From positions 3,335-67,334 of the forward strand of contig NZ_LMJT01000001.1 in NCBI RefSeq assembly GCF_001429395.1: a stretch of 64,000 nt of DNA. Direction: 5' to 3'. The position numbers and the translations under genes were made by a program. Source of the DNA: Allobosea sp. Root381 (GTDB lineage: Bacteria > Pseudomonadota > Alphaproteobacteria > Rhizobiales > Beijerinckiaceae). This document shows positions 39,724 through 45,290 of this stretch, in pieces (the stretch's first letter is position 1; each line of letters begins with the position of its first letter). The notes beneath the pieces are model-generated. The model worked only from the letters and a program-made list of their open reading frames with translations. It had not been told where the DNA came from and searched no databases.

Positions 39724-41064
39724 TCAGGCGCTATCGCCCGCAAGCCGCTTCAGCGCTTTCTCCCGGCCGATGAGCGGGAGCAGCGCCGCCAGTTCGGGAC
39801 CGTGATCGAGCCCGGTCAGCGCTCGGCGCAGCGGCATGAACAGCGCCTTGCCCTTGGCCCCCGTCGCGGCGGAGACGGCGCCGGTCCAGCTTTTCCAGGT
39901 GGTCGCGTCGAAAGGCTCGGCCGGCAGCAGCGAGGCGGCAGTGGCGGCGAAGGCGGGGTCAGAGATGTCGGGTGCGAGCGGACCCTGCACCACCTCGTCC
40001 CAGATGCGTGCCTCGTCGAGCTTGGCAAGGTTGCCGCGAATCGCGAGCCAGAAGGCCTCACTGCCGTCGACGCCGAGGGCCTGCAGCCGTGCTGCGACCG
40101 CCTGATGCGGAAGCTGATGCAGGGTGCGGGCGCTCAGCGTCTCGAGGTCGTGCTCGTCGAACTTGGCCGGCGCGCGCGAGATATGGCCGAGGTCGACAAG
40201 GCGCGCGAGCTCGTCGAGGCTGGCGACGGGGCGCACCGCATCCGAGGAGCCGGTCAGCACGGCGAGCGATGCAACCGCCATCGCCTCGACGCCCGCCTCG
40301 CGCAGCCCGCGCAGCGAGAGATGGCCGAGGCGCTTGGAGAGCCCTTCGCCGCTTGCCGTCGTCAGCAGGTTATGGTGGCCGAAGGCCGGCAGGCTCGCGC
40401 CCAGTGCCTCGAAGATCTGGATATGCACCGCCGTGTTGGTGACATGATCCTCGCCGCGGATGATGTGGGTCACGCCGGTCTCGGTATCGTCCACCACTGA
40501 CGGCAGATGGTAGAGATAGCTGCCATCTTCGCGGATCAGCACCTGGTCTGACAGCGAGGCGCAATCGACATGGGCTTCGCCGCGCACCAGATCACTCCAG
40601 GCGACGACACGCGGCTCCAGCAGGAAGCGCCAATGCGGCTTCCGCCCCTCGGCCTCCAGCTTCGCCTTCTCTTCGGCGGTCAGCTTCAGCGCGGCGCGGT
40701 CGTAGATCGGCGGCAGGCCGCGCGCGAGCTGGCGCTTGCGACGACGGTCCAGTTCGTCGGCCGTCTCGTAGCAGGCATAGAGCCGGCCTGACGCGCGCAG
40801 GCGCTCCGCCGCCGCGTCATAGAGCGCAAGCCGCTGCGACTGGCTGATCACGACGTCTGGCACGATGCCGAGCCAGGCGAGGTCCTCGGCGATGGCCTCG
40901 GCGAATTCCGGCTTCGAGCGCGCGAGATCGGTGTCGTCGTAGCGCAGCATGAAGCGGCCGCCGTGGCGGCGCGCATAGAGCCCGTTGAACAGCGCCGAGC
41001 GGGCGTTGCCGATGTGCAGATAGCCGGTTGGCGACGGAGCGAAGCGCAGGAGCGGAGCGGTCAT
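39724..41064 (-). CDS. gltX: Glutamyl-tRNA synthetase (second-type GltX)
   Basis: 446 residues. [13 protein letters not shown] (HIGH-type, residues 8-20) and E-G-L-S-K-R-L-G (the KMSKS-equivalent) are present, with the G-E-D-H-V-T-N-T segment. Alphaproteobacteria commonly have two GltX proteins; the short length and weakly conserved K-M-S-K-S (G-L-S-K-R) fit the second type. The downstream neighbour is the NadE-like gene. Confidence 0.93.
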
Positions 41065-41114
41065 GCCCGGCTTATGGCGCGTTTGCGCGGCAGCGACAAT
41101 CGCCGGCTGGTCCT

Positions 41115-42815
41115 TCAGAAATCGAAGCTCTCGCCGCCGCCCCGGCCCACGCCCCTGACCAAGGCCGGATCGGGTTGATACGCCGCCTCGCCCGTGTCGA
41201 CGAAGCCAGGAGCGATGGGATCGAACCGCTCGCCGTTCGGCTTGCGCGCGGCGATCCTGATTCCGGGCGCGGCGCGGCGGCGCCGGTAGGCGGGGCATGC
41301 GAGCGCGCGTTCGACGGCAACCACCGCCTCGCGATCATGCCCCCCGGCAACGATCTCTGAAACGCGCTGCCCACGGTCGAAGGCGGCCAGTATCGCGTCG
41401 AGCACGTCATGAGGCGGCAGCGCTTGCCCGCCGGCCAGGAGCGCGTCCGGGATGACGATGCCGTCGGGGCCCAGCGCGTCGGCCGGCTTCCAGCGGTTGC
41501 GCAGCGCGGCGAGCCGCACCAACTCGGTCGCATAGAGATCCCTGAGCGGATTGAAGCCGCCAGCCGCCTCGCCGGGATGCGCAGCATCGCCGCAAACCAT
41601 CCCGGACCGTCCTGCCGGGACCGCCAGCACCCAGCCGAGGCTGTCGGCCAGCGCCGCGAGCAGCGTGCCGCACACGTGGCTCTCCAGGCTCGACTCCAGG
41701 GCAACGTTTCCACCGGTGCCGACGACGCCTGACAGAGCCGCTTCGACGGCCTTGACCGCGCCCTCGATCCCGAGGATCTCGCAGCGCGCGCCCAGCGCCC
41801 GTGCGCAGGCCTGCGCAGCGGCCAGGATCTGCGGGGCCGTGCGGCGGGAGGGCATCAGCACGCAGGTGACGTTCTCCGGCCCCAGCGCATCGACCGCCAT
41901 GGCAGCCGCGAGCGCCGTGTCGATGCTGCCCGACAGCCCGAGCACGATGCCGGGGCGCCCCGACTTGGCGGCATGGTCGCGCAGGCCCAGCACGCAGGCG
42001 GCATAGTCCGCCTCGTCTCCGGTCTCGACGGCGGCGATCTCGCCGGGCCGGCAGCTCCAGCGCCCGGCCTCGCGGACCCAGTCGACCATGACGAGGGTCT
42101 CCCGGAAGGCGGGGAGCTGGTGCGTCAGGTTGCGTCCGTCATCCAGGACGAAGGAGGCACCGTCGAAGACGAGCTCGCCCCGGCCGCCGACCTGGTTGAG
42201 ATGGACCAGCGGCAGCTCGCTCTCGACCACGCGCGCGACCGTGGCATTCATGCGTTCGTCGCCGGCGCCGCGGCGGAAGGGCGAGCCCTGCGGCGAAAGC
42301 AGGATCTCGGCCCCGGTCTCGGCGAGGCATTCGACGACCTCCTCATGCCCGAGGTCATGACCGATCGGCAGGCCCAGGCGGACCCGATCGCGAAACGGCA
42401 CCGGGCCCGGCAGCGGGCCGGCTGCGAAGCTGCGCGTCTCGTCGAGAAGGTCGTCATCCGCCAACGCCACCTTGAAGCGCACGGATTGGATCACGCCGCC
42501 ATCGAGCAAGGCGCAGGCGTTGTAGAGCTTGCCGCCCTCCAGCCAGGGCAGGCCGAGCAGCACGGCCGGGCCGCCATCCGCCGTCTCGCGCGCGAGCTCC
42601 TCGCAGGCCTTGCGGCAGGCGTCCTGGAAAGCCGATTTCAGCGCGAGATCGTCCGGCGGGTGGCCACTGAGGAACAGCTCGGGGAACATCACCAGCTCGG
42701 CGCCCGCCTGCCCTGCCCGGCGCCGGGCCTCCCGGACAAGCCCGGCATTGCCGGCTACGTCGCCGAGGACGGGGTTCGATTGCGCAAGGGCGAGGCGGAA
42801 GGAGGTCGCGATCAT
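41115..42815 (-). CDS. NadE-like protein, both active sites degenerate
   Basis: 566 residues with the full two-domain layout of glutamine-dependent NAD+ synthetase: a nitrilase-like amidase (about 5-260) and an ATP-pyrophosphatase (about 270-540). The amidase keeps Glu46 (F-P-E-L) and Lys115 but the nucleophile position, normally I-C-E-D-x-W, reads I-G-H-D-L-G (Gly152 for Cys). In the synthetase domain the P-loop S-G-G-x-D-S is S-G-S-I-D-T (295-300), T-T-G-N-K-S-E is V-P-A-G-R-S-G and the K-R-R-Q-A-P-P-G block is R-R-R-R-A-A-P-G. The frame is intact over its whole length, so it is kept as a protein, probably not as NAD+ synthetase. Confidence 0.8.
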
Positions 42816-42950
42816 TGCGCGGCTGTAGCGTGACGCCGGCGCCCGGGCAACGGCGCCCGCCGCGGCTTAACCTGACGTTAGGGTTAATCGCGCATGAATG
42901 CTGGCGGAGCCGCCCCTGCACGACAGCAGGCCTCCGTTCGGAGAAGCGAG

Positions 42951-43820
42951 ATGCGTAGCCGCCAGATCACCATGATGGGCACCGCCGCCCTCGTCGCCTG
43001 TGCCCTGACCACGACCACCTCCATCGAGGCCGCCGATTTCCCCGTACTGCGCGGTTCGCAGATCGAGGACGCTCCGCCGGCGCCGGACTATATCAGCTGG
43101 TCCGGCTTCTATTTCGGCGGTGGCGCCGGCGTCTCCTCGACCAAGTTCGAGCCCGGCGGCGAAGGCCTGCAGAAGCTCGCGCGCTTCTCCTTCCGCAACA
43201 CGGTGCTCGGCAACGAAATCGACATGGGCGGACTGGTCAACGAGCTGCCCTCGAAGCGCGACAGCGGCGCACAGTATTTCGGCTTCGCGGGCTATAATTT
43301 CCTATTCGGCGACGCGGTGCTCGGCATCGAGGCCGATTACACGCGCTCGAACCACTCCTATCTTCTGACCGACTATATCGCGCGGCGCTTCGTCGACTCG
43401 ACCGGCACCGTGAACGACTTCTCGCTCTCGACCCGGCAGGGCGCCGAGCTTCTCGACTACGCCACGGCGCGCATCCGCATGGGCTGGGCCTATGGCCGGA
43501 TCATGCCCTTTGCGACGCTCGGCGCCGCCGTCGGCCGGTTCAACACCGTCTCCACCATCGTGGCGACCAACGACCTGACGCAGGCCAACCCGGTCACCGG
43601 CGGCGTATTTCAGGGCCCGGCGGCCGGCTATCCGCTGGCGGTCGGCGAGACCAAGCGCAATGTGTACGGTTTCGGCCTGACCGCCGGTCTCGGCGTCGAC
43701 ATGGCGCTGACCGAGAACCTCTTCCTCAGGGCCGAATATCAGCTCGTCCGGTTCGCCGATGTCGAAGGCACGACGACGACGGTCAATACGGGCCGTGTCG
43801 CCGCCGGCCTGAAGTTCTGA
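42951..43820 (+). CDS. Outer membrane beta-barrel protein (Omp25/porin-like)
   Basis: 289 residues: signal peptide ending S-I-E-A-A-D (1-28), then the W-S-G-F-Y-F-G-G-G-A-G-V start of an OmpA-like eight-strand barrel, with Y-F-G-F-A-G-Y-N-F, A-R-I-R-M-G-W-A-Y-G and L-F-L-R-A-E-Y-Q. It ends in K-F, a terminal Phe as BAM substrates require. The ATG at 42951 follows GAGAAGCGAG. Abundant structural porin-like protein of Hyphomicrobiales is the likely role. Confidence 0.9.
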   Translation: MRSRQITMMGTAALVACALTTTTSIEAADFPVLRGSQIEDAPPAPDYISWSGFYFGGGAGVSSTKFEPGGEGLQKLARFSFRNTVLGNEIDMGGLVNELPSKRDSGAQYFGFAGYNFLFGDAVLGIEADYTRSNHSYLLTDYIARRFVDSTGTVNDFSLSTRQGAELLDYATARIRMGWAYGRIMPFATLGAAVGRFNTVSTIVATNDLTQANPVTGGVFQGPAAGYPLAVGETKRNVYGFGLTAGLGVDMALTENLFLRAEYQLVRFADVEGTTTTVNTGRVAAGLKF

Positions 43821-43898: not shown

Positions 43899-45290
43899 TT
43901 ACTCGGCCGCCTCGACCTCGGGCCGGGCCCGGCCGGCGCGATCGCGCTTGACCAGCTCGGCGACGAGGAAGGCGAGTTCCAGCGCCTGCTCGGCGTTGAG
44001 ACGCGGGTCGCAGACCGTGTGGTAGCGGTCGTTCAGGTCCGCATCGGTCATGCCGCGGGCACCGCCCGTGCATTCGGTGACGTTCTTGCCCGTCATCTCC
44101 AGGTGCAGGCCGCCGGCATGGCTGCCTTCTGCCTGGTGGACGGCGAAGAAGTTCTTCACCTCGGTCATGATCAGGTCGAAGGGCCTTGTCTTGTAGCCGC
44201 TCGCCGCCTTGACCGTGTTGCCGTGCATCGGGTCGCAGGACCAGACGACGTTGCGCCCTTCCCGCTTGGTGGCGCGCACAAGCGCCGGCAGGTTGTCGAA
44301 CACCTTGTCGGCGCCGAAGCGGCCGATCAGCGTCAGGCGGCCCGGCTGGTTCTGCGGATCGAGCACGTCGATCAGCTTGAGCAGGCCGTCGACCGTGGTC
44401 GACGGGCCGCATTTCAGGCCGATCGGGTTCTTGATGCCGCGGAAGAACTCGACATGGGCGTGGTCGATCTGGCGCGTGCGATCACCGATCCAGAGCATGT
44501 GCCCTGAGGTGTCGTAATACTCGCCCGTCGTCGAATCGGTGCGCGTCATCGCCTGCTCGTAGCCGAGCAGAAGCGCCTCGTGGCTGGTGTAGAAATCGGT
44601 CGTGCGCATCTCCGGATGGGTCTCCGGATCGATGCCGATGGCGCGCATGAAGTCGAGCGCCTCGGTGATGCGCTCGGCGACCTCGTTGTAGCGCGAGGAG
44701 GCGGGCGCATCCTTGACGAAGCCGAGCATCCAGCGATGGGCGTTGTCGAGATTGGCGTAGCCACCCGTCGCGAAGGCGCGGATCAGGTTCAGCGTCGCCG
44801 CCGACTGGCGATAGGCCTCGAGCTGGCGGCGCGGGTCGGGAATGCGCGCCTCAGGCGTGAAGGCGTTGTCGTTGACGATGTCGCCCTTGTAGCTCGGCAG
44901 CTCGACGCCGCCGATCGACTCGGTGGGAGCCGAGCGCGGCTTGGCGAACTGGCCGGCTATGCGCCCGACCTTCACCACCGGCGAGCCGCCGGCAAAGGTC
45001 AGCACCACCGCCATCTGCAGGAACAGACGGAAGAAATCGCGAATGTTGTCGGCGGAGTGCTCGCCGAAGCTCTCGGCGCAGTCGCCGCCCTGAAGAAGGA
45101 AGGCCTCGCCGGCCGCGACCTTGCCCAACGCCCGTTTGAGCTTGCGCGCCTCGCCTGCAAAAACGAGCGGCGGAAAGCCGGCGAGCTGCTGCTCCACCGC
45201 CTTAAGGGCTGCCTGGTCCGGATATTCCGGGATCTGCTGGACGGGCTTTGCCCTCCAGCTCTCGGGCGTCCACCGCTCGGACATTGTCAC
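43899..45290 (-). CDS. Class II 3-deoxy-7-phosphoheptulonate synthase
   Basis: 463 residues, class II (plant-like) DAHP synthase. Motifs [32 protein letters not shown] and [10 protein letters not shown] are intact. It makes the first shikimate-pathway product from PEP and erythrose-4-phosphate. I use the GTG ending at 45290 because AGGAG lies six bases before it; the ATG ending at 45284 would put the site too far. Monocistronic by the terminator downstream. Confidence 0.95.

Follow-up and report, generated by a model that had tools for sequence, protein, structure and literature searches.

The 64,000-nucleotide stretch of Allobosea sp. Root381 DNA analysed here (hereafter the window) encodes a full-length homologue of the NAD synthetase NadE2 in which both active sites have been lost. 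Judged from sequence, the protein is probably a retained pseudoenzyme with a structural or regulatory role, its catalytic residues gone and the protein itself preserved by selection. This conclusion is carried by the lost catalytic residues, by a second nadE in the same genome, by a locus shared with related genomes and by the selection acting on dead copies. The protein is presumably expressed, inactive in vitro and, by prediction, folded. Features of the locus are collected in Table 1; below, G numbers denote genomes or species of a Bosea survey, P numbers database proteins and L numbers fetched loci.

Table 1. Features of the nadE2 locus in the window.
Feature	Position	Strand	Basis or remark
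NadE2 homologue, catalytically dead by sequence, 566 aa, whole gene	41115..42815	-	Stop at 41115-41117
Glutaminase-like (nitrilase-fold) domain, residues 4-262	42030..42806	-	PF00795; largely conserved except near the pocket
Codon 152, GGT (Gly), at the nucleophile Cys position	42360..42362	-	Alignments and codon reading
Synthetase-like domain, residues 263-539, relaxed selection	41199..42029	-	PF02540; dN/dS
Altered P-loop SGSIDT (canonical SGGIDS)	41916..41933	-	Alignment
VPAGRSG where TTGNKSE is canonical	41601..41621	-	Alignment
12-residue in-frame deletion, PPSAEL...DQD loop, approximate site	41425..41440	-	Alignment
YRRRRAAPG (genus canonical YKRRQAAPG), mild change	41262..41288	-	Alignment
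C-terminal tail, residues 540-566	41118..41198	-	Kept in Gly-type rows except G212 (frameshifted); altered in P0059
gltX2 (glutamyl-tRNA synthetase family)	39724..41073	-	41 bases downstream of the window gene; next conserved gene
Outer-membrane-protein-like ORF (omp; named by eye), divergent, upstream	42894..43820	+	Conserved part of the locus
DAHP synthase-like gene (aroG; named by eye)	43899..45290	-	Conserved flank

The open reading frame starts with ATG, runs for 566 codons without an internal stop and keeps the domain order of NadE, with the CN_hydrolase domain PF00795 at residues 7-246 followed by the NAD_synthase domain PF02540 at residues 273-513. The intact frame and domain order described in the initial annotation are thus borne out, and the protein belongs with NadE2. 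HMMER alignments to the solved structures 4f4h and 5kha, in agreement with alignments of relatives, place Gly152 at the nucleophile cysteine, so that the Cys-to-Gly reading stands and a mis-registration of this position is ruled out. Two members of the Glu-Lys-Cys glutaminase triad, Glu46 and Lys115, are retained, as are Glu126 and Asp154; Tyr52, Tyr121, Phe124, Glu153, Trp156, Asn176 and Tyr205 have been replaced. Neither the SGGxDS P-loop nor the TTGNKSE motif is present in the synthetase domain, where alignment upholds the SGSIDT reading, with S295, G296 and D299 still in place, and reads VPAGRSG for the changed TTGNKSE. The reported change in the KRRQ motif is also real (KRRQAAPG of the genus has become RRRRAAPG) but mild. 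Loss of both active sites in a full-length, two-domain protein is therefore confirmed, and the damage extends beyond that described earlier, with a 12-residue synthetase loop missing and seven pocket residues replaced.

The closest solved relative of the window protein is the NadE of Burkholderia thailandensis (4f4h); the available text of PMC7196632 places a B. thailandensis NadE among the dimeric type-2 synthetases, NadE2. In a Foldseek comparison, an AlphaFold model of the protein likewise finds its best E-value with 4f4h, at 36% identity in the alignment. With NadE2 (4f4h, 5kha and NF010588) the window protein shares domain order, predicted fold, this level of identity to 4f4h and the NadE2 locus of the genus; unlike NadE2, it lacks the nucleophile cysteine, has damaged ATP and substrate motifs and, with 459.2 bits, falls short of the curated threshold of NCBIfam NF010588 (NAD+ synthase), which is set at 479. 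The octameric NadE1 enzymes (M. tuberculosis 3dla) have the same glutaminase and synthetase architecture, but they are about 680 residues long, carry canonical motifs and form a different subfamily.

NadE1 is the type of the other enzyme in this genome. A second, canonical nadE is present in the same 5.68-Mb assembly as a 702-residue open reading frame with CEDVW and SGGLDS motifs; among PDB entries it matches M. tuberculosis NadE best (3dla, 857.8 bits), which identifies it as NadE1. The window gene is thereby ruled out as the sole nadE, and the lack of any second nadE, named in the initial annotation as a refutation, does not apply. We searched 67 genomes of Bosea, the closest named relatives of the window genome, for both NadE types and read residue 152 in the 45 NadE2 proteins encoded at the same locus. 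Twenty-seven genomes carry a Cys-type NadE2 and no NadE1, 10 carry a Cys-type NadE2 with NadE1 (in two fragments in G214), 22 carry NadE1 but lack a NadE2 at the locus, and eight combine a Gly-type NadE2 with NadE1 (complete in seven, cut to residues 68-679 in G212); none of the 67 lacks both types. The nucleophile has thus been lost in a family that normally has it, residue 152 being Cys in 37 of the 45 proteins and Gly in all eight others. Gly-type proteins occur in 8 of the 18 NadE2 genomes with NadE1 and in 0 of the 27 without (Fisher p = 0.0002, kinship ignored), and the absence of NadE2 from the locus in 22 of 40 NadE1-bearing genomes indicates that a NadE2-type protein is dispensable, which counts against the pseudoenzyme reading.

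Additional copies of both types were seen in the survey. Three genomes (G208, G219 and G247; loci L138, L139 and L140) hold a further NadE2 copy with Cys that shares 39-40% identity with the window protein. In each, this copy lies on a different contig, which bears an extra gyrB match as well; in G219 and G247 the matched stretch contains one TGA. G218 has a second, shorter NadE1-like stretch (G218:C1:3537351-3538469) about 7 kb from its full-length NadE1 gene.

The order DAHP synthase-like gene, omp, nadE2, gltX2 is shared by the window, seven other dead loci and the nine intact loci compared, with nadE2 and gltX2 separated by 0.6-2 kb in some relatives. Among 11 regions fetched from NadE1-only genomes, seven have omp and gltX2 89-233 bases apart with no nadE2 between them; the gaps are longer in G226 and G211, and the pair was not seen in G225 and G238. 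G238 differs from the surveyed relatives in having neither a NadE2 at the locus nor a close gltX2, its best gltX match being 40% identical (E 3.1e-62). In G208, a 493-residue transporter-like open reading frame (SulP-like by eye; L133:6628-8109) lies on the other strand between nadE2 and gltX2. With G238 not counted, the upstream outer-membrane-like protein (window 42894-43820) is 40 to 72% identical among relatives, and at the same loci identity exceeds 76% for gltX2 and 91% for the DAHP synthase-like protein.

Two protein searches, each covering the best 120 of 7998 scored candidates and the second seeded with Gly-type proteins, yielded together with the genus set at least 33 rows without the cysteine, or at least 30 after removal of three duplicates. 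In this 30-protein set, which still holds a few near-identical pairs and whose counts are partly biased by the Gly-type seeding, the Gly152 equivalent, Lys115 and Asp154 are found in 30 of 30 proteins, with Glu at position 46 in 21 of them and Asp in the other 9. Less biased are the counts from the genus survey, where Gly stands in eight of eight proteins without the cysteine, and from the first search, where eight of the 120 matches listed, the window protein included, lack it and all eight have Gly. Among the matches listed, P0002 (84% identical) and P0003 (78%) represent the window protein's own lineage and dead state, with N-domain identities of 89% and 88% versus 79% and 68% in the synthetase domain. 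These two proteins, together with the 8 of 45 same-locus NadE2 proteins that lack Cys, indicate that the state is more than chance. Another protein, P0059, combines Gly with an intact SGGIDSAL and hence looks like an early stage of loss.

Selection on the dead copies was estimated with a purpose-written codon model program (MG94, F3x4). In an all-dead clade (G208, G212, G237 and G240), dN/dS is 0.159 for the N-terminal domain (2dlnL 173 against 1) and, without the frameshifted G212, 0.291 for the synthetase domain (2dlnL 70 against 1). Subsets give 0.165 for the N-terminal domain (G208, G212 and G237) and 0.275 for the C-terminal domain (G208 and G237), and the two domains differ when both are estimated from one set of three taxa (2dlnL 9.0). 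For intact NadE2, four related species give 0.081 in the N-terminal domain, 0.070 in the C-terminal domain and 0.131 in the tail, versus 0.340 for the tail of the dead clade, where the test against 1 is weak over 27 codons (2dlnL 5.2). Other genes of the dead-clade species give 0.062 (gltX2), 0.042 (gyrB) and 0.051 (NadE1, three of the four species).

A branch model of 16 taxa on a hand-specified topology, without G212 and G084, gave N-domain values of 0.113 for intact copies, 0.193 for the window, 0.133 for G110, 0.181 for the G208 clade, 0.196 for G223 and 0.185 for G163. The corresponding C-domain values are 0.120 for intact copies, 0.444 for the window (estimated over residues 263-566), 0.387 for G110, 0.324 for the G208 clade and 0.262 for G223; that of G163 (0.072) comes from a saturated branch (20 substitutions per codon) and was left unused. 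On the window branch, which may include time before the loss, dN/dS = 1 is rejected for both domains (2dlnL 40.5 and 14.6). Nei-Gojobori estimates (Biopython) point in the same direction, with 0.25-0.28 (N) and 0.38-0.80 (C) in the dead clade, where C pairs that involve G212 take in the frameshifted end of this copy, and 0.07-0.16 for intact pairs. Purifying selection thus retains the protein in dead lineages, and values above those of intact copies (0.07-0.12) indicate that it is partly relaxed. With a canonical second nadE in the genome and dN/dS well below 1, the retained pseudoenzyme proposed in the initial annotation gains support from both sides, and the window protein resembles pseudoenzymes generally in being a family member that has lost its catalytic residues and remains under selection.

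The same measurements weigh against the view that a NadE2 made redundant by NadE1 is slowly being lost, its low dN/dS being mostly a legacy of the period that preceded the loss and of weak selection acting on misfolded products. The all-dead clade, at 0.16 (N) and 0.29 (C), is far from 1; seven of the eight Gly-type genomes keep the frame and the C-terminal tail despite indels; and Gly is invariant in all eight while the third base of its codon varies (GGT, GGC and GGG). Slow loss would explain the coexistence of intact copies, the early-looking P0059, degraded forms, in-frame deletions, a G212 C-terminus that is frameshifted in reality or by assembly error, and the clean absence of the gene between omp and gltX2. 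It also fits the raised dN/dS of the synthetase domain and the ease with which open frames persist in GC-rich genes. Taking both sides together, we consider that the gene is unlikely to be a decaying relic.

The dead copies have kept the body of the N-domain and not its pocket. Residues 52, 121, 124, 152, 153, 156, 176 and 205 are invariant in all 37 Cys-type proteins and mostly changed in the eight Gly-type ones. The N-domain sites most clearly abandoned by dead copies are 52, 58, 60, 119, 121, 123, 124, 152, 156, 176, 177, 184, 191 and 205, and most lie near triad residues in sequence. Among the M. tuberculosis NadE residues named in the available text of PMC6946656, Cys176, Glu52, Lys121 and Glu132 match residues 152, 46, 115 and 126 of the window protein by triad offset, and Tyr58, Tyr127, Phe130 and Glu177 match 52, 121, 124 and 153. 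Conservation among 13 Gly-type proteins is strong in two helices (61-80 and 158-166) and in residues 81-115; of the 30-protein set, 30 retain Cys67, 29 Cys71 and 30 Cys163. The same three cysteines (window 42603-42617 and 42327-42329, minus strand) are kept in 59, 46 and 57 of 59 distant intact proteins; NadE2 is described as more active with DTT in the text available from PMC7196632. The AlphaFold model has a pLDDT of 88.3 and a pTM of 0.90, derives from an alignment dominated by intact enzymes and says nothing on the dead protein's own folding; a model from 13 Gly-type sequences alone is poor (pLDDT 71.8, pTM 0.50).

A conserved N-domain body around a lost pocket favours a role of the protein surface over that of a sensor, in which the nucleophile-less pocket would still bind and report glutamine or a related amide. 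Lys115 and Asp154, present in every Gly-type protein of the set, and the acidic residue at position 46 would suit such a sensor, but Glu46 and Lys115 may owe their retention to a structural role, and the presumed ligand-binding or pocket-closing residues (Tyr52, Tyr121, Phe124, Glu153, Trp156 and Asn176) are mostly lost, which leaves ligand sensing improbable.

Continued catalysis is very hard to reconcile with the synthetase domain. The initial annotation had offered a synthetase re-tuned for another acid, and the S295, G296 and D299 still present in the window P-loop would be in keeping with an enzyme that acts on a new acid or amine; TTGNKSE and the 12-residue loop are gone, however, and we reject re-tuning on the fate of this domain in related dead copies, the P-loop being unrecognisable in G163, G223 and G240 and roughly 80-100 domain residues missing from G163 and G223. 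Free ammonia is usable in vitro by two-domain NAD synthetases (available text of PMC3376133), and P0059, with Gly and an intact SGGIDSAL, suggests that an ammonia-dependent NAD synthetase lacking only its glutaminase may have been a passing stage, but the synthetase motifs of the window copy are damaged too and make a working enzyme of this kind scarcely credible.

The weight of the shared glycine depends on how often it arose: with one origin it is trivial, whereas with three, as in the protein gene tree, or five, as in the species tree, it is not. Under neutral change from TGC, the first replacement would be Gly with a computed chance of about 0.20. In a four-gene tree (gyrB, rpoB, NadE1 and gltX2), dead copies are interspersed among intact ones and dead G110 is sister to intact G214 (support 100; 96 with gyrB and rpoB, 99 with gltX2), a placement that requires five losses unless genes were transferred. 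Several deep nodes of this tree are weak (24-61); of its 20 species, gltX2 covers 18, NadE1 17, gyrB 20 and rpoB 19, with G214 represented by one of its two NadE1 fragments and G237 by a partial rpoB. G214 is joined to G245 in the NadE1-only tree (82) and also in NadE2 trees (85-95; first plus second position or protein sets), which makes transfer or recombination possible.

AU tests retain a single origin on four nucleotide sets (p 0.39-0.51) and on proteins with P0059 included (0.077). The species topology is rejected when all codon positions are used (0.014 and 0.0009) or the third positions of the larger set (0.043), but is retained on N-domain third positions alone (0.081); one of four sets rejects the G110 and G214 grouping (0.005). 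The NadE2 sets behind these results are partial, with 18 taxa in the AU tests, chosen intact rows in the protein gene tree and one tree built without 14 intact genomes and three off-locus copies, and long-branch attraction may also have played a part. The nitrilase nucleophile sits in a strained turn, and Gly may be favoured by stability once catalysis is free to go.

We propose NadE2, one of the glutamine-dependent NAD synthetases described as dimeric, as the ancestral enzyme of this locus; its catalysis would have become dispensable where NadE1 was also present. Some lineages would then have lost the gene; in others, the window's included, the nucleophile was probably lost before the synthetase site, an order suggested by one intermediate, P0059, with purifying selection continuing. 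Preservation would centre on the body of the folded N-terminal domain and not on its glutamine pocket, and a scaffold or binding partner acting through the protein surface is the most likely role. Such a protein could serve as a regulatory adaptor that makes no NAD and holds on to the nitrogen-signalling protein PII, a known partner of NadE2, or has some other protein as its partner.

According to the available text of PMC7196632, Azospirillum NadE2 is bound by PII, which also lifts the inhibition that NAD+ exerts on the NadE2 enzymes of three distant bacteria. The window protein belongs to the subfamily bound there; in that complex the enzyme works and its NAD+ feedback is relieved by PII, whereas no activity is expected here. 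By analogy, a NadE2 body without chemistry could keep the PII contact, and this most specific of the mechanisms is a guess. That NadE2 turned non-catalytic in parallel on several occasions in this genus, each time through Gly and beside NadE1, to give a recurrent regulatory adaptor that keeps its partners, perhaps PII, and leaves the making of NAD to NadE1, is a tentative proposal that may well not hold.

Loss and transfer in particular lineages have been described for NAD synthetases (PMC3376133), and the portion of that paper available mentions no retained dead form. No report of an NAD synthetase pseudoenzyme appears among the open-access matches listed, a weak absence with subscription papers and preprints outside its scope. 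Of the Gly-type proteins with a source name, several are labelled NAD+ synthase and others hypothetical or nitrilase-related, a labelling that can mislead pathway reconstructions. The copies at this single locus of one genus form a natural series that starts with a working enzyme, passes through dead forms of early and late stage and ends in clean absence of the gene, which allows a test of why a cell keeps the body of an enzyme after its chemistry has moved elsewhere. If a dead NadE2 does act as a regulator, NAD synthesis would gain a further level of control, in a subfamily that elsewhere is under PII nitrogen control.
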